Shown one piece after another: positions 21,228 to 64,000 of a stretch of 64,000 nucleotides of DNA. Origin of the DNA: Ectothiorhodospiraceae bacterium (GTDB lineage Bacteria; Pseudomonadota; Gammaproteobacteria; Nitrococcales; Aquisalimonadaceae); contig PXAT01000194.1 of NCBI GenBank assembly GCA_003565775.1, positions 1 through 64,000 of the forward strand, read 5' to 3'. Positions within the stretch are counted from its first letter, which is position 1. Every line of letters begins with the position of its first letter. The notes beneath the pieces are model-generated. The model worked only from the letters and a program-made list of their open reading frames with translations. It did no database searches and was not told the DNA's origin. Position numbers and translations under genes: made by a program.

Positions 21228-21728
21228 GTCATTACCTCTCGCGATGTGCCACCGACAGACCGTGCTGGATACCCGTCAGAAGGTGGCTGGCGGACACCGG
21301 CATTCCATCTTTTTTTCCACCTTGAAACCACTATATGCTTCGCTCGAAAACGCTGCAAGACTTTGATTTAAAAGATGTACCGACTATCTACAAGACCTGT
21401 TCAGAAATATCGCCAGGACCGTCGGCGGGCACTGTCCCCGGCGTCTCCGCCCCTGCAGCCCGAGCCGCCCCGGTGTCCATTCCGCAGCACCTACTGCGGT
21501 ACAGATACGCTGCTTCAGCATCTGCACCTCGACGGTGCCCAAATTAACCGGTGAGCTCCGTACGCTTGCGCACATAGCGAAATCGGCTTGATCGATTGCC
21601 GCGAGATCGCCGCAGCGGTGGTGTGCATGACCGGGGAATCAGGCTGCACCAACATGGCAGGGGTATCCGGGAGGGTGTAACCGGGCGCGAGCCGGCCGGA
21701 GAAGCAGATTCGCCGGAACGCCGGATTC
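21228..21728. other. 500-bp spacer upstream of rpoS
   Basis: The part next to rpoS (21228-21322) would be the 5' leader of the rpoS mRNA behind the promoter at 21330-21358. It contains a run of seven T residues (+ strand, about 21310) and is AT-richer than its surroundings. The far part (21360-21728) holds no convincing gene. A GC-rich hairpin CGCCGGAT/ATCCGGCG at 21719-21738 overlaps the stop of the CMD-like gene and may stabilise its 3' end. Confidence 0.6.
21330..21358 (-). promoter_or_regulatory. Sigma-70 promoter for rpoS
   Basis: On the - strand TTGCAG (21353-21358) and TATAGT (21330-21335) are separated by exactly 17 bp, close to the sigma-70 consensus. The predicted start lies about 95 nt upstream of the rpoS ATG. 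In E. coli the main rpoS promoter is inside nlpD. Here the gene between nlpD and rpoS makes a separate proximal promoter reasonable. Confidence 0.7.
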
Positions 21729-22106
21729 TCATCCGGCGCTCTGGCCACCAGGCGCATCATCGTCCTCGATTTCGTCCTCTTCATCGTCATCGTCATCGTC
21801 GAGGACATCATCAATCCAGGTCAGTCCGGCAACCGCTCGCGGAAAGCCGATGACGCCGATCGCGAGCAACGCGACATGGCGTAGCTCCTCGGGATCGAGA
21901 TCTTCATCCAGGGCGCGACGGGCATGAGAGTGCGTCGCGCCCTCACTGCCGACGGCGACCGCCAGCGCCAGCTTGACCAGACGCCGATCGCGCTCGTCCA
22001 GAGGCCCGGCCTCGGCACAGGCCTGACCCAGCGCACTGTACGCCTCCCAGACATCAGGGAATTCTTCGGCCACATCGCCGGCACTGGATGGTAATTGCTC
22101 GCTCAT
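21729..22106 (-). CDS. Carboxymuconolactone decarboxylase-like protein, acidic tail
   Basis: A 125-aa protein with an AhpD/CMD-type fold signature: DERDRRLVKLALAVAVGSEG at about residues 38-57, then THSHARRAL and a conserved IGFPRAVAGL-type helix. The CxxC found in AhpD-type redox members is absent, so peroxidase-linked redox activity is unlikely. The last 25 residues are almost all Asp and Glu. The start has GGAGAG 7 nt upstream. It sits between nlpD and rpoS on the same strand. Function unknown. Confidence 0.72.
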   Translation of the reverse strand: MSEQLPSSAGDVAEEFPDVWEAYSALGQACAEAGPLDERDRRLVKLALAVAVGSEGATHSHARRALDEDLDPEELRHVALLAIGVIGFPRAVAGLTWIDDVLDDDDDDEEDEIEDDDAPGGQSAG

Positions 22107-22199
22107 GGCTTGCTCTCCGCGGCTAAACTGCAACAGGAATCGCCCTGCCGGCGGACAGACTACCGCATGCAGAGCCCGGCCATCGGTCGGATATCGGTG

Positions 22200-22979
22200 T
22201 CAGCGACGTTCCGGAAGATAGCGTAGAGGATCCACGGGGCGGCCCTCGCGGCGCAATTCGAAATGCAGCATGTGCTGACTGCCATTGCGCCCCATCCGGG
22301 CGATTTCCTGACCGACGGACACGTCGACGCCTTCGCGAACCAGCAACTCTTCGTTATAGCCGTATGCGGTGAGGTATTCATCGTCATGCTTGATGATCAC
22401 GAGATTGCCGTAGCCCACCAGTCCGCTACCGCTGTAGACCACGCGACCGGGTGCGACGGCGCGTATCGCCTGCCCGGAAGAGCCGCTGATGTTGATTCCC
22501 TGTTTGCCGTCGGAATCTGCGGAAAAGCGCTTGCTGACCTCACCATCGGTCGGCCATTTCCAGTCGATATCGGTCGCTGTCCGCTGTCCGGACGAACTCG
22601 AGGCCGACCGGGATGGTGGATCGGGAGCGCGCGCACTGCGGCCGCCACCCGCAGGCGCGGAGGAGCCGGTCGCAGGGGTACTGCTGCGGGCACCACTCGA
22701 CGAAGAGGCGGCAGACCTGTCCCGCCCGCCGCGTGCAGCAAGGCGCAGTTCCTGCCCGGGGTAAATCGTGTATGGCGACTGGATGTTGTTCCAGCTGGCC
22801 AGATCGCGGTAATTGACTCCGTGCCGGAATGCAATGCCGTACAGGGTATCGCCGCGTGCCACGGTATAGCTGCCACCCGGCCCGTCGCCGCCACGATCGG
22901 AGACCGGCGCATAGGTATCCCGCGCGCAAGCTGCCAGCAGGCAGCAGCAAAGCAGCAACAGGACGAACCGCATCGACAT
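22200..22979 (-). CDS. nlpD: NlpD-type lipoprotein, LysM plus degenerate LytM domain
   Basis: A 259-aa outer-membrane lipoprotein that in E. coli activates the amidase AmiC for daughter-cell separation. The signal peptide ends in LLAAC, making Cys18 the lipidated residue. A LysM peptidoglycan-binding domain (YTVARGDTLYGIAFRHGV onward, about residues 41-84) is followed by a Ser/Gly-rich linker and a C-terminal M23/LytM domain (about 140-255). The first zinc ligands are replaced (GINISGSSG instead of an HxxxD site), as in activator rather than enzyme members. The ATG at 22979 has AAGGA six bases upstream. It lies in the surE-pcm-yqaA-nlpD-rpoS series. Confidence 0.93.
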   Translation of the reverse strand: MSMRFVLLLLCCCLLAACARDTYAPVSDRGGDGPGGSYTVARGDTLYGIAFRHGVNYRDLASWNNIQSPYTIYPGQELRLAARGGRDRSAASSSSGARSSTPATGSSAPAGGGRSARAPDPPSRSASSSSGQRTATDIDWKWPTDGEVSKRFSADSDGKQGINISGSSGQAIRAVAPGRVVYSGSGLVGYGNLVIIKHDDEYLTAYGYNEELLVREGVDVSVGQEIARMGRNGSQHMLHFELRREGRPVDPLRYLPERR

Positions 22980-23118
22980 CAGAGGTCCTTTTCCTCGAAC
23001 GGTATCGGGCCGGTCGCCCGCGACAGACCGCGGAACCATTACCGTGACCGGGAAAGGCCCCCGCGCCAACCCCGGATACCGGGGAAGCGGACGATGTCCG
23101 GCCCGTTTCCCCAGGCTT

Positions 23119-23700
23119 TCAGTGTATGAAGAACAGGTACAGCAGAACCAGCAGAATCACACCCAGCCAGCCAAGGATATCGACATAGCGACGGATCCAC
23201 GGTTCGATCCGCGGACCACCCCAGGCAACCACGGCGGCAACCAGGAAGAAACGCGCACCGCGGCCGACGAGCGAGGCCAGCACGAATGGCAGCAAGGCAA
23301 GCGCCAGACCGCCGGCCGCAATGGTGAAAATCTTGTATGGCACCGGTGAGAAGCCGGCAAGCAGAACCACCCAGAACCCCCAGGTCGTGAACCACTCCCG
23401 CGCGGTGACAAGAGCCGTTTCCTGACCCGCTGCCACAATCAGCGGCTCGACCAGTTCCATCGCGAAAAAACCGATCACATAGCCAAGCACGCCGCCAAGC
23501 ACCGATGCCACCGTGGTAATCATGGCGAAACGCATGGCACGACGGGGTTGCGCCAGGGCCATGGGCATCAGCATCACGTCCGGCGGAATCGGGAAAAACG
23601 AGGATTCGGCAAAACTCAGAACCGCGAGATACCGTGGCGCGTGCCGGTGCGCGGCCCACTGCAGCATGCGCAGATACAGCCGGCTGAACAGCCGCGTCAT
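23119..23700 (-). CDS. yqaA: YqaA-type DedA/VTT-domain membrane protein
   Basis: A 193-aa inner-membrane protein of the DedA/SNARE-associated (VTT) superfamily. Four to five hydrophobic segments are present. The family feature [20 protein letters not shown] is near residues 30-49, and the re-entrant-type [14 protein letters not shown] is near 115. DedA proteins are linked to lipid flipping and membrane potential homeostasis. Members of the YqaA branch often sit between pcm and nlpD, as here. It overlaps the end of pcm by 4 nt. Confidence 0.88.
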
Positions 23701-24356
23701 CGGGTCCCGCCCAGCATCGGTACGAACACGACACGATCCAGCACTTCCCGCTGCAGCTGATCGCCGCGCCGGGTGTACCGCACCAGATCCTGCGCATCAC
23801 GCGGCCCGACCGGCGCAATCAGCCGACCCCCCTCGGCAAGCTGCGCAAACAACTCGTCCGGCACGTCCTCCGGTGCCGCCGTCACCATGATGCCGTCAAA
23901 CGGTCCCTGCCCGGCCCAGCCGTTGTAGCCGTCGGCATGACGCACGCGCACGTTATACAAGCCGAAGCGACGCATGCGCTCCCGCGCCAGTGCCACCAGC
24001 GCACTGATCCGTTCCAGCGTGAAGACCTGTTCCACCAGACACCCGAGCACCGCAGCCTGATAGCCGGACCCGGTGCCAACCTCCAGCACCGACGCCGGTC
24101 GCTCCTGTTCGATCAGGGCCTCGGTCATGCGCGCAACGACCCAGGGCTGCGAGATCGTCTGACCGTAGCCGATCGGCAGGGACACATCATCATAGGCACG
24201 GCTTGCCAGGGCTTCGTCGACGAACAGATGGCGCGGTACCACGCGCATCACGTCCAGCACCCGACGATCGCTGATGCCCTTCTCCCGGAGACGCGTCACC
24301 AGACGTTCGCGCGTACGCTGGGAGGTCATGCCGATACCATGCATAAGCACCGACAT
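23697..24356 (-). CDS. pcm: Protein-L-isoaspartate O-methyltransferase
   Basis: A 219-aa cytoplasmic enzyme that methylates isoaspartyl residues with S-adenosylmethionine so that damaged proteins can be repaired. The PCMT signature segments are visible: [12 protein letters not shown] at the N-terminus, the TISQP substrate loop, the SAM-binding EVGTGSGYQ near residue 91, and the late GGRLIAPVG. The start at 24356 overlaps the surE stop (TGATG), which indicates coupling; a start at 24329 is the main alternative. surE, pcm, nlpD and rpoS form the classic survival cluster. Confidence 0.95.
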
Positions 24357-25111
24357 CAGGCCTGCTCCAGCCCGCCGACCCAGCCGGCCACCTTGTCCAG
24401 AGCATCGTAGCGGGTGAGATCTATCTGGATCGGCGTGATCGAGACGCAACCGCGCCGAACGGCATGAAAATCCGTTCCCTGACCGGCATCCTGTTCGGTT
24501 CCGGGAGGGCCGATCCAGTAAATCGGCCGGCCCCGCGGATCTTCGGAGCGAATCGCGCTCTCGGCGCGATGACGCTGCCCCAGCCGGGTTGCCTCGAAGC
24601 CGCGCAACTCCTCCCAGGGGCAGTCGGGTACGTTCACGTTGAGAATCGTGTCGCTCGGCAACGGGTCATGCAGCAGCCGCTTGACCAGCATCACGGCGAC
24701 TCGCGCCGCCGTGGCGTAATGGTCCGGCTCATGCGAGCAGAGTGATACCGCGATCGCCGGCAGACCGAGAAACCGGCCCTCGGTGGCAGCTGCCACGGTA
24801 CCGCTGTAAAGCACATCGTCGCCCATGTTCGCGCCCGCATTGATTCCGGAAACGACCATATCGGGCTCGTCCTCCAGCAAACCGGTCACCGCCAGATGGA
24901 CACAATCGGTCGGCGTGCCCTCGACCCGGAACTGACGGGGCTCGACCTCCCGGGCGCGAATCGGGAGATCCAGCGTCAGCGAATTGCTCGCGCCGCTGCG
25001 GTCGCGATCCGGAGCAACCACCGTGATATCGCCGAGGCTGGCCAGTTCCTTCGCCAGACACTGGATACCGGGCGCCATGTAACCATCATCGTTGCTCACC
25101 AGAATATGCAT
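24356..25111 (-). CDS. surE: 5'/3'-nucleotidase SurE
   Basis: A 251-aa metal-dependent nucleotidase and exopolyphosphatase for stationary-phase survival. The N-terminal metal motif NDDG is at residues 7-10. The conserved [10 protein letters not shown] is near 36-45, and [19 protein letters not shown] is near 89-107. Length equals E. coli SurE (253 aa). The ATG at 25111 starts the conserved [10 protein letters not shown]; the reading frame continues upstream without family features. It is the first gene of the surE-pcm-yqaA series. A 20-bp palindrome lies 47 bp upstream. Confidence 0.95.
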
Positions 25112-59989: not shown

Positions 59990-60482
59990 GGAAGCTCTGA
60001 TCTATTCCCACGCCTGCGTTGGCGATCCCGTTTTTCCCGAGGCAAGCCTGCTGCGCAGCGCAAAAATCGGGGGGAATGCGGCTCACTGGTGGGCTTCGAT
60101 GCCGAGCGGGCGAATGCCGGCTCCGGAACCGCTGCAAGGGCATCCATGCCCGCTTGATGATCGCCTCCCTGCGATCGACATTCCTTCGCCAACATCCGCC
60201 CGCTCGGCTTGGTGCGTGTGGCGCATCCGGGTGCCGTGGCTTCGTCGGTGCCGGCCCGAATCCCGCACCGCGGTTCGAGCCGGGGTAAGGCATTCCCCCG
60301 GAGGGACACCTGCCGCAGGGACGCGGCCGTCGAGCCCCCATGGATGGGTTTACGGCGATCCCGGAGAGGGAATGCCTTACCCCGGCTGGGCACCATTCGG
60401 TGAGGTTGGCACCCAGGTTTAAGGCCCTTGCGAGATAACCATAACGGTCTCGGACGCAAACGCGGGAAGAGATCGGAGCTAT
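59989..60482. repeat. About 490-bp intergenic element with terminal inverted repeats
   Basis: The left end (59989-60016) and the right end (60455-60482, other strand) share an AGCTCYGATCT core followed by TTCCC and a CG-rich block, forming imperfect terminal inverted repeats. Inside are a 40-nt segment (60092-60131) also present at 14136-14175, and a pair of perfect 20-bp inverted arms (60279-60298 and 60368-60387) enclosing a segment with CCATGGATGGG. Short frames in all directions lack ribosome sites and family features, so the element looks non-coding. It fills most of the 631-bp gap between glnD and the ABC-F gene. Confidence 0.7.
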
Positions 60483-60620
60483 CGTCGGGAACCACGCCCT
60501 GTTCCCGGCGGTGCGACTTGATCACGGTGATCGCCAGCGCTGGAAAACACGTGTAGTATCCGCGACTTTCCGGGCTTCGGTCCGGCTTGATCCCGCTTTT
60601 CGTCTGACAGGAAATCTCCC

Positions 60621-62213
60621 GTGCTTCAGTCCGCCAATATCACCATGCAGTTCGGTGGTGCACCGCTGTTCGAAAACGTCTCCCTCAAATTCTCCGGTGG
60701 CAACCGTTATGGCCTGATCGGCGCCAACGGCTGTGGCAAGTCCACCTTCATGAAGATTCTGGGCGGCGATCTCGAGCCCAGTGCCGGCTCGGTCTCCATC
60801 GGTGAAGGGCTGCGTCTCGGCAAGCTGCGCCAGGATCAGTTCGCCTACGAGGCCTACACCGTCACCGACACCGTGCTCATGGGGCATCCGGAACTGTGGC
60901 GCGTGAAGTCGGAGCGGGAGCGCATCTACGGCCTGACCGAGATGAGCGAGGAGGACGGCATGGCCGTCGCCGAGCTGGAGACCGAATTCGCCGAGCTGGA
61001 TGGCTATACGGCCGAGCCGCGGGCCGGCGAACTGCTGCTGGGTCTGGACATCCCCACCGAGCAGCATTTCGTGCCCATGAGCGAGATCGCGCCGGGCTTC
61101 AAGCTGCGGGTGCTGCTGGCACAGGCGCTTTTCTATGATCCGGACATCCTGCTGCTGGACGAACCGACCAACAACCTGGACATCCATACCATCCGCTGGC
61201 TCGAGGACCTTCTCAACCAGCGCAACAGCACCATGGTCATCATCTCGCATGACCGGCACTTCCTGAACAGCGTCTGCACTCACATCGCGGACGTGGACTA
61301 CGGGGACATCAAGGTCTATCCGGGCAATTACGATGACTACATGAGCGCCTCGACCGCCGCCCGCGAGCGGCTGTATGCCGACAATGCCAAGAAGAAGGCG
61401 CAGATGGCAGAGTTGCAGGCCTTCGTCAGTCGCTTCTCGGCCAATGCCTCGAAGGCCAAGCAGGCCACCTCGCGGGCGCGCCAGCTGGAGAAGATCGAAC
61501 TGAACGACATCAAGCCGTCCAGCCGGCAAAGTCCGTATATCAAGTTTGATCAGAACAAGAAGCTCTATCGCCTTGCTCTGGAAACGAAAAACCTCGCCCG
61601 AGGCTTCGATGGCGATAGCCTGTTCAGCAAGCTCGACCTGATGGTGGAAGTCGGCGAACGGATCGCCGTGATCGGCCCCAACGGCATCGGCAAGACCACT
61701 CTGCTGCGCACACTGGTGGGCGATCTGACACCGGACAACGGTGCGGTGAAGTGGTCGGAAAACGCCAACGTCGGCTACTACGCGCAGGACCACGGCGAGG
61801 AGTTTGCCAGCGACATCACCGTATTCGACTGGATGAACCAGTGGGTCGACAGCCAGGGTGACGATCAGGTGGTCCGCGCCACGCTCGGCCGCCTGCTGTT
61901 CTCCGGCGATGACTTCAAGAAGAAGGTCTCGGTCCTTTCCGGCGGCGAAAAAGGCCGCATGCTGTTCGGCAAGCTGCTGATGCAGAAACCGAACATCATG
62001 GTGCTCGACGAGCCCACCAATCACATGGACATGGAGTCCATCGAGGCGCTCAACCTGGCGCTGGAGCATTACCCCGGCACCCTGATCTTCGCCAGTCACG
62101 ATCGCCAGTTCGTGTCCTCGCTGGCGACCCGCATCATCGAACTCACGGCCGATGGCCTGATGGATCATGGTGGCGGCTATGACGACTATCTGAGCACCCG
62201 CCGCGCTGCCTGA
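60621..62213 (+). CDS. ybiT: ABC-F family ATPase, YbiT-like
   Basis: A 530-aa soluble protein with two ABC ATPase domains and no membrane segments, acting on ribosomes. Walker A motifs are GANGCGKST (about 35-43) and GPNGIGKTT (about 352-360). The Walker B block [11 protein letters not shown] is in the first half and [10 protein letters not shown] in the second. The first domain has [14 protein letters not shown] in place of LSGGQ, as in E. coli YbiT, and the second has LSGGEKGR. Length equals YbiT (530). The GTG start at 60621 has AGGAAA 8 nt upstream. YbiT-group factors adjust translation elongation. Confidence 0.92.
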
Positions 62214-62232
62214 ACGCCCCCCTGCCTTCCCC

Positions 62233-62257
62233 GCGCGGCGCATGTCATGCGCCGCGC
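62233..62257 (+). terminator. Hairpin after ABC-F gene
   Basis: GCGCGGCGCATG (62233-62244) and CATGCGCCGCGC (62246-62257) are perfect complements with a single base between, giving at least an 8-bp GC stem with a 9-nt loop. It begins 20 nt after the stop codon. There is no T-run. Probably a 3'-end hairpin. The rest of the 224-bp spacer holds no visible gene. Confidence 0.45.
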
Positions 62258-62437
62258 TGCCCTCGAAGAACGAACTGCCGCGCCTTCTCCGTGTCACAAA
62301 TCGTAGCGGGCGTCCTGGTAGCGACATCGACACCACCCGCCATGCGACTGAATGCTGTAACAGGCAGATCGCAGGGTTGCCCCCTCCCCGGGAGTACCGT
62401 GCCTTCAAGCCATGACGAAGCGGGCAAAGGAAAGGTT

Positions 62438-63298
62438 ATGGACGGAAACTGGATGAAGCACGGCCCCTACCGGATGACCGTGCTGGTGCTCTGGAGCCAT
62501 GCTCTGCTTCTGGCCGCATTGATCACGCTGCATGCGCAGGGCTGGATCAATCTGCTGCTGCCCACCAGTGTCCTGGTTCTGACCGGCATCGGTCTGATCG
62601 CCGCCAACCTGGTCTACCATCTGATCCTGACCGTGCCGCGCTGCAGCCTGATGCTGGACCGGGAACGTCGCGCACTGGCCGCACTGCGCAGGCATCTGGA
62701 TGATGACAGGAGCCAGACACCGCACGACCGTGTGGTCGCCGTCTTTCAGGAGCAGATCGCCGATCTCGATGCCCAGACCGTGCTGGCGCGCTTTCTGCGC
62801 CGACTGGCGCTGGCCAAGGCGAGCAATCCCCGCTATCCGGTGGATCTCGGCTCGTTCTCCGCCCTGCTTGAAAGCCAACTCAAGCGCCGCACCAGTGAAG
62901 TCAGCCTGGCAGCTTCCTACCAGCCGCGTTACGGCCTGTTTTTCACCTTTCTCGGCGTGTCCATAGGCCTCGGCACGGTGGATTTCTCGACAATCGTCGG
63001 CGAAACCGGCGGTGCGGATGTGGGTGCCGGTCTGGTCGTCGCCGGCCAGGTGCTGTCCGGCATCGGCATGGCGGTGCTCACCTCGCTGGCCGGGATGGCC
63101 GGCAACATCATTCTCTCGCGGCACCAGGACGCATTCGATCGTGCTACCAGCGCCATGGTGGACGAAGTCGAGGTACTGATGCTGACTCGCGTCCTGCCGC
63201 TGGTGAATGACGACGAGGAGATGGCGCTGATCCGTCAGGACGTTCCCGAGACACCGGAGGATGTGCTCGACCAGGATATGGAACCGGCACCGGCATGA
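62438..63298 (+). CDS. MotA/TolQ/ExbB-like proton channel protein
   Basis: A 286-aa membrane protein. Two hydrophobic segments lie near the N-terminus (about residues 14-31 and 36-62), followed by a roughly 100-residue charged cytoplasmic stretch. Two more segments follow (about 167-188 and 203-232). The third segment, YGLFFTFLGVSIGLGTVDF, and the fourth, LSGIGMAVLTSLAGMAGNII, have the small-residue and Thr pattern of MotA/TolQ/ExbB pores. The start at 62438 has AAGGAAAGG upstream. It overlaps the next gene by 4 nt. It does not look like canonical TolQ (no tolR/A/B) or MotA. The substrate or load is unknown. Confidence 0.72.
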   Translation: MDGNWMKHGPYRMTVLVLWSHALLLAALITLHAQGWINLLLPTSVLVLTGIGLIAANLVYHLILTVPRCSLMLDRERRALAALRRHLDDDRSQTPHDRVVAVFQEQIADLDAQTVLARFLRRLALAKASNPRYPVDLGSFSALLESQLKRRTSEVSLAASYQPRYGLFFTFLGVSIGLGTVDFSTIVGETGGADVGAGLVVAGQVLSGIGMAVLTSLAGMAGNIILSRHQDAFDRATSAMVDEVEVLMLTRVLPLVNDDEEMALIRQDVPETPEDVLDQDMEPAPA

Positions 63299-64000
63299 CC
63301 CGCAACCCCCGTCATCAGCGCCAGCAGCGCAACGACGAAGCCAGCAATATCGCCACCGCGGACCTGCCCTGGGCGGTGATGGGCGCGCTCGCGCTGGTAC
63401 TGGTGGTGCTGCTCTTGCTGGTCAATCCGGTCACGCCACCGGTCGACCCGGACGACAGCGCGTTGCACGTGACCGCGGAATGGGACCCGGCTCTGCCCGA
63501 GCGGCACCGCGAGAACCCCTTGCCGGAGCGCGAAGCCGTACTGACCCGGGACGATGCCCTCATTCAGCCCGGACACTCGTATGCCGATGTCGATCTGTGG
63601 GCGGTCTACATGGATCCTGCCGGTGACTGCCAGGTGGTCGGTTACCCGACACACATTCGCCAGTCGGCGCTGCTGCGGCTTGATCAGGACGACCGGGGCT
63701 GGCAGGGAGACGAAGCTCGCGAGAATCTCAATCTGGAGGTGGTAGGCGCGCGTACGGTGACGCTGCCTCGGGGGCGCTACATGGCCAGCGTGCACCTCTA
63801 CAATGCGAACGAGGAACCGTTGCCAGTGGTCACTACCCTGCGCGTGGTGATCAATCGCGACCGACCCAATCAGCGGAGCTTCCGCTGGGACATCCCCCTG
63901 GAACGGCCACGTCAGGAAGTGGGCGTCAGCTTCCAGATCGACGATGAGGGCGAACTTGTGGAAGGTTCGATGACGGAGCCCGGGGACATGCGACTCGCCA
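63295..64000 (+). CDS. Single-pass envelope protein, partner of the channel protein (partial)
   Basis: An open frame of at least 235 codons, cut by the window end. The first 22 residues are cytoplasmic and polar. A transmembrane segment follows (LPWAVMGALALVLVVLLLLV, about 24-43) and then a periplasmic domain predicted rich in beta-strands. Asp23 sits at the start of the membrane segment, the place of the proton-carrying Asp in MotB and TolR. The periplasmic part (about 45-235) matches no family I recognise, and no OmpA-like motif is visible before the cut. Four-base overlap with the channel gene indicates a complex. Confidence 0.65.
   Translation, partial: MTRNPRHQRQQRNDEASNIATADLPWAVMGALALVLVVLLLLVNPVTPPVDPDDSALHVTAEWDPALPERHRENPLPEREAVLTRDDALIQPGHSYADVDLWAVYMDPAGDCQVVGYPTHIRQSALLRLDQDDRGWQGDEARENLNLEVVGARTVTLPRGRYMASVHLYNANEEPLPVVTTLRVVINRDRPNQRSFRWDIPLERPRQEVGVSFQIDDEGELVEGSMTEPGDMRLA

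Follow-up and report, generated by a model that had tools for sequence, protein, structure and literature searches.

A very divergent copy of a three-gene membrane module related to the Tol/Ton motors, with relatives in Proteobacteria and tailed phages

The gene pair at the end of the analysed window is, together with a third gene located beyond it, a very divergent copy of a three-gene membrane motor module (A-B-C) which is related to the Tol/Ton motors, is scattered in Proteobacteria and is also found in tailed phages. The window is the complete stretch of 64,000 nucleotides that was analysed (G000:C90:1-64000), and the contig of 70730 bases continues for ~6.7 kb past its end. A-B-C is probably a TolQ/ExbB/MotA-type motor of the inner membrane, driven by protons and equipped with a new head. 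To our knowledge, few PMF motors have a characterised role (flagella, Ton, Tol, gliding and Zorya). A widespread trio with a new head type, two genomic settings (cell-wall/phospho-signalling and PQQ-dehydrogenase clusters) and phage miniatures would offer handles on further proton-gradient work in the envelope. No account of the trio was found in the open-access literature searched, and a survey of MotAB places such proteins in a group of generic ion transporters, among them members whose function is unknown (PMC12505986).

Results

Gene layout and selection

The original prediction described a four-segment protein and a single-pass partner, and both genes were present at the given place with the expected overlap of 4 nt (ATGA; A ends at 63298 and B begins at 63295). 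The start codon of A is the ATG at 62438, and two species of the genus share this protein start. Reading of the downstream genes, which had been proposed as a check, was performed on the contig beyond the window and gave gene C, followed by convergent genes of the ctaG/cox type on the opposite strand, whose sequences suggest a CtaG-like product and subunits of cytochrome oxidase. The positions of all features are listed in Table 1.

Table 1. Features of the A-B-C locus and of its proteins. Positions refer to the window unless the contig is named.
Feature	Position	Strand	Description
Ribosome binding site-like element	62426..62434	+	Shine-Dalgarno-like AAGGAAAGG before A, from sequence reading
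Gene A	62438..63298	+	286 aa; channel subunit with four helices, TolQ/ExbB-like; T170 and S216 at the pore positions
Gene B	63295..64000; ends at contig position 64026	+	235 of 243 residues inside the window
Codon of B Asp23	63361..63363	+	membrane entry
Domains of B	residues 23-43; residues 55-227		single-pass helix; predicted periplasmic TerD-like beta-sandwich
Gene C	contig 64038-64820 (L006:8039-8821), outside the window	same as A and B	260 aa; two N-terminal membrane helices

In two genomes of the same genus A is 84-86% identical and B is also carried; C was read in one of them (G001). Due to the fact that the substitutions between the window genome and G001 are mainly located at third positions and that dN/dS is low (~0.10 for A, 0.09 for B and 0.20 for C), A, B and C are real genes under purifying selection.

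Upstream of A, ~2.4 kb (59990-62437) including an ABC-F ATPase gene (60621-62213) separate glnD from A in the window; in G001 (L015) A lies less than 0.2 kb after glnD. Two inverted repeats past glnD (60101-60208 and 60278-60387), with arms of 28-29 nt and both with a spacing of 52 nt, are possibly REP-like elements.

Distribution of the module

A search of 95 relatives yielded two distant matches (G061 and G064), both of them A-B-C operons followed by a gene for a membrane-anchored FHA protein, and B of the window aligns with their B proteins over the full length at 25-29% identity. B was matched in 40 of 369 gammaproteobacterial genomes and in 16 of 398 genomes of a phylum-wide draw. In GTDB contigs, 191 loci were confirmed by scanning. 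Of the 80 that were fetched for reading, all contain B, 79 contain A and 77 contain C, on one strand and in the order A-B-C. The proposed survey of the genomic context of homologous pairs thus showed that the genes recur together (77-79 of 80 B loci), and since A and C accompany B on one strand in nearly all fetched loci, the A-B-C trio is a unit. The window copy has what defines the module, namely A, B and C adjacent on one strand and the B head motif, and its lineage is placed on a very long branch in the B tree.

Subunit A

The membrane segments of A are located at approximately residues 13-31, 37-55, 164-181 and 199-217. The structure was predicted from an alignment of 58 sequences (pLDDT 81, pTM 0.72), and the best solved matches of the model were TolQ (8vlw_B; Z 13.2, rmsd 3.2, 208 residues) and ExbB (5sv1_C; Z 13.1), followed by ZorA (Z 10.7) and MotA (9.5). 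The lead over ZorA and over unrelated helical rows amounts to 2-4 Z units, to be read with the knowledge that helical bundles reach middling Z by chance, and the Foldseek E-values of the model were only ~0.01. The A-family profile was aligned with the TolQ/ExbB proteins of the genome of the window at a probability of 95 and an E-value of 3.7e-8, and in this profile comparison T170 and S216 fall on the two TolQ/ExbB pore threonines. The predicted fold of A is the TolQ/ExbB pore fold, the lack of which in a predicted structure had been named as the finding that would speak against the original prediction. The pore hydroxyl residues in TM3 (T170) and TM4 (S216) are kept; residue 216 is Thr in all counted members of the A family outside the window genus and Ser in the window lineage.

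In the Pfam search A of the window itself did not match PF01618, which is matched by A of the relative G061 (E 2e-10), and none of the window proteins A, B and C is named by a Pfam, NCBIfam or PHROGs family. Weak matches of A in G004, G012 and G013 were rejected as relatives of the pair, being flagellar MotA with MotB adjoining.

Subunit B

The motif DPFTDLLFNALLGF of B agrees with PY/PLIDV..LL, a motif found in the TolR/ExbD genes of the genome of the window. For the model of the B head the closest solved chains are all TerD (3ibz with Z 9.8, rmsd 4.2 and 143 residues, 2qng with 9.0, 2qz7 with 8.7 and 2kxt with 8.3), and Ig-type folds rank after them at Z 5.8 or less. This match surfaced only on VIA re-alignment of the Foldseek candidates; Foldseek alone gave no meaningful match for the B model. 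B and TerD sequences are collinear, DLD corresponding to DVD and the acidic GDN..GDDE loop to DQDDRG, at an hhalign P of 0.04-0.11, which is not significant, and the Pfam search with B gave no match to PF02342 (TerD). Thus, the head of B is by its fold a predicted TerD-like beta-sandwich, with a kinship that the sequences do not prove, and it is unlike TolR/ExbD or OmpA-like domains. The new periplasmic load of the original prediction is partly borne out, in that this predicted fold sets the head apart from the domains known in B subunits.

In the alignment of phage, bacterial and window proteins the acidic residues D98, D100, D132 and D133 of the head are invariant, and these residues suggest that the head may bind calcium. 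The head motif DxD.W ... DDRG is present in the window copy. DUF2135 (PF09906, cut-off 22) scored 14.8 bits with B of L020 and 22.3 bits with the homologue in G143, and B of the window had no match. Searches of PDB sequences returned only a weak phage virion match for the B profile (E 0.14) and no matches for C.

Asp23 and two clades that lack it

Asp23 opens the predicted helix of B (residues 23-43), in agreement with the predicted Asp at the membrane entry of the single-pass partner. Its conservation among homologues, on which the original prediction had been made to depend, extends from the phages to the window: it is kept in 111 of the 135 collected B sequences, a set that includes some loci twice, and in 72 of the 80 fetched loci, and it is the sole invariant N-terminal column when B proteins of phages, bacteria and the window are aligned.

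The other 24 of the 135 sequences carry Ala (13) or Val (11) instead, and all of them have a Lys four residues after the Asp23 position, where most others have Asn. In a tree calculated without those columns they form two separate well-supported clades, both apart from the window lineage (members are L098, L100, L103, L104, L105, L107, L108 and L120, and L150-L159). These clades otherwise keep an intact trio, and in the 8 genomes checked the copy without Asp was the only one found. A compensating acidic residue or change was looked for in A of these clades and none was found. A second Asp four residues before Asp23 is kept in the clades, but the window genus, the checked phages and L166/L167 lack it. 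Since the trio is otherwise intact in both clades without Asp23, Asp23 is not indispensable to every member of the module.

Neighbouring genes

The gene context was counted in 64 loci with enough flank, the shared ancestry of the loci being uncorrected in these counts. Type I comprises 45 of the 64. Its characteristic genes encode a YkuD L,D-transpeptidase, present in 44 loci, a DUF302 protein, in 34, and a vWA-membrane-FHA protein, in 29; 28 loci have all three. Among the other 19 loci, 11 have a gene for a DUF3108-like lipoprotein directly 3' of C (subtype II). PQQ-dehydrogenase-related genes are found near 10 of the 19 non-type-I loci vs 2 of 45 for type I (Fisher p 3e-5); for a SoxYZ-like quinoprotein carrier the counts are 8 of 19 vs 0 of 45, both comparisons again uncorrected for shared ancestry. 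The existence of two partner sets in the relatives suggests that the motor core has been fitted to different clients in the periplasm. Partner genes of type I or type II are absent from the neighbourhood of the window copy, read to 6.7 kb downstream, and a search without positive control found no relative of the vWA-FHA protein in the genome of the window.

In one locus of genus g377 (L163:6246-8431), genes that read as Ser/Thr-kinase-like and metallophosphoesterase-like adjoin the trio, which fits the FHA link of type I.

Forms carried by phages

The trio was found in Rhizobium phage 16-3 (B is p040, C is p042 and A lies near p038), in other rhizobial phages, in IMG/VR contigs and in a likely prophage. 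The loci are L167:7711-10633 (the likely prophage), NC_011103.1 at positions 21624-24512 (L168), L169, L170, and L193, L195 and L196 (IMG/VR). When viral contigs were scanned with a profile of the bacterial alignment, four of them matched. Phage A proteins are miniature forms of ~140-175 aa, which is barely more than the four helices. A trypsin-like protease gene was located within ~2 kb of the trio in the 4 rhizobial loci read, and an endolysin-like gene near the trio in L167 and L193.

Discussion

Proposed mechanism and alternatives

The mechanism proposed here sets out from what was computed on the genes and their selection, the fold and pore hydroxyls of A, the conservation of the trio and of Asp23 and the fold class of the B head. 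By analogy with known motors, five A subunits would form a pore with two B helices inside, and protons would flow by way of Asp23 in B and of T170 and S216, the hydroxyl ring in A. Two periplasmic heads, TerD-like beta-sandwiches, would take up the movement. C almost always adjoins B and is taken as a third subunit, probably holding or steering the head. Our guess as to the load is that for most relatives it probably consists of envelope proteins encoded alongside, on which the head would act, either the vWA-FHA protein and the L,D-transpeptidase or proteins of the PQQ-dehydrogenase clusters; the window lineage retains the core only, and its load would therefore be encoded elsewhere or be different. 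The possible proton-driven motor of the original prediction is supported, neither the fold of A nor the conservation of Asp23 having gone against it, and we infer the 5:2 assembly, the use and conduction of protons, and rotation or pull from TolQR, ExbBD and MotAB.

It appears unlikely that A-B-C is a gated ion channel or sensor which does no work, the head of which binds Ca2+ or another ligand and thereby opens a signalling proton leak that is connected in relatives to vWA-FHA proteins and Ser/Thr phosphorylation. The resemblance of the head to calcium-binding TerD (2kxt, 3ibz), its four invariant Asp residues, the FHA proteins adjoining the trio with kinase- and phosphoesterase-like genes in one relative, and the existence of the clades without Asp23 would agree with a sensor. 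However, the predicted fold of A is that of the complete TolQ/ExbB pore, hydroxyl ring included, and calcium binding of the head is a suggestion from sequence. In known members this pore fold with its hydroxyl ring couples proton flow to movement.

An anti-phage motor like ZorAB is highly improbable: the only models that A matched below an E-value of 0.01 were ZorA models of PADLOC (17.5 bits and E 3.4e-4 at best) and ZorA is the next structural match after TolQ/ExbB, but A lacks the long tail of ZorA, B has no match to an OmpA-like domain, the adjoining genes are translation, cell-wall, cytochrome or PQQ genes with no nuclease or helicase gene among them, and phages themselves carry the trio. 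We give as little weight to the possibility that the window copy is a relic which is losing its function in its genus. The lineage is on a very long branch and has lost both the DP motif and every partner gene, and one of three other genomes of the genus, which is 86% complete, gave no match, all of which could be read in this way; nevertheless, the relic reading is disfavoured by the selection test (dN/dS ~0.1 in A and B), the frames are intact, and Asp23 and the head motif residues are kept in three species.

Beyond the reading as a proton-driven motor with a new head, we consider it possible, and put it forward only tentatively, that A-B-C represents an unnamed class of such motors with TerD-like, perhaps calcium-binding heads that is common to Proteobacteria and tailed phages, and in which the membrane Asp held to be essential in 5:2 motors was replaced by Ala or Val in two lineages independently, along with the gain of a Lys one turn of the helix further on. 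The Asp-to-Lys clades would be a natural test of the rule that the motor Asp is indispensable.

Comparison with known systems

With TolQ-TolR and ExbB-ExbD the trio shares the predicted fold and the pore hydroxyls of A as well as the short N-terminus, the PxxD helix motif and the single pass of B, whereas the TerD-like head of B, an extra first helix in A, the third subunit C and the absence of a TolA/TonB gene are different. Tol-Pal or Ton proper was rejected, as B has no TolR/ExbD Pfam match and the neighbours are C and cox genes. TolQ/ExbB-type genes paired with TolR/ExbD-type genes are present elsewhere in the genome of the window; at L003:1886-2748 (G000:C84) exbB is followed by two consecutive ExbD-type genes, and in the second of these the helix Asp is replaced by Asn (IIPLINIVFLLL).

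The MotAB stators also have four helices in A and an Asp at the start of the B helix, but the structural score is lower (9.5) and B has no match to a peptidoglycan-binding domain; the genome has its own motAB. ZorAB has a channel of the PF01618 type, the family that A of a relative matches, and A obtained weak scores with the ZorA models; the differences are the missing tail of A, the missing OmpA-like (peptidoglycan-binding) domain match of B and neighbours other than zorC/D/E. The genome of the window also encodes, at another place (L005, G000:C136), a ZorA-like MotA/ExbB protein of 420 aa that has a long coiled tail.

vWA heads have been described on TolQ-type motors, one family having the vWA domain on the motor-bound helix (PMC12204202). 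These force-transducer families are likewise PMF motors with unusual periplasmic heads, and vWA proteins adjoin the motor in many relatives of the window copy; here, however, the head is predicted to be TerD-like, and the vWA protein is separate, has a cytosolic FHA domain and is absent in the window. TerD proteins differ from B in having no membrane helix, and B differs from them in having no PF02342 match, while both share the predicted fold of the B head and the collinear pattern of DxD and acidic loop.
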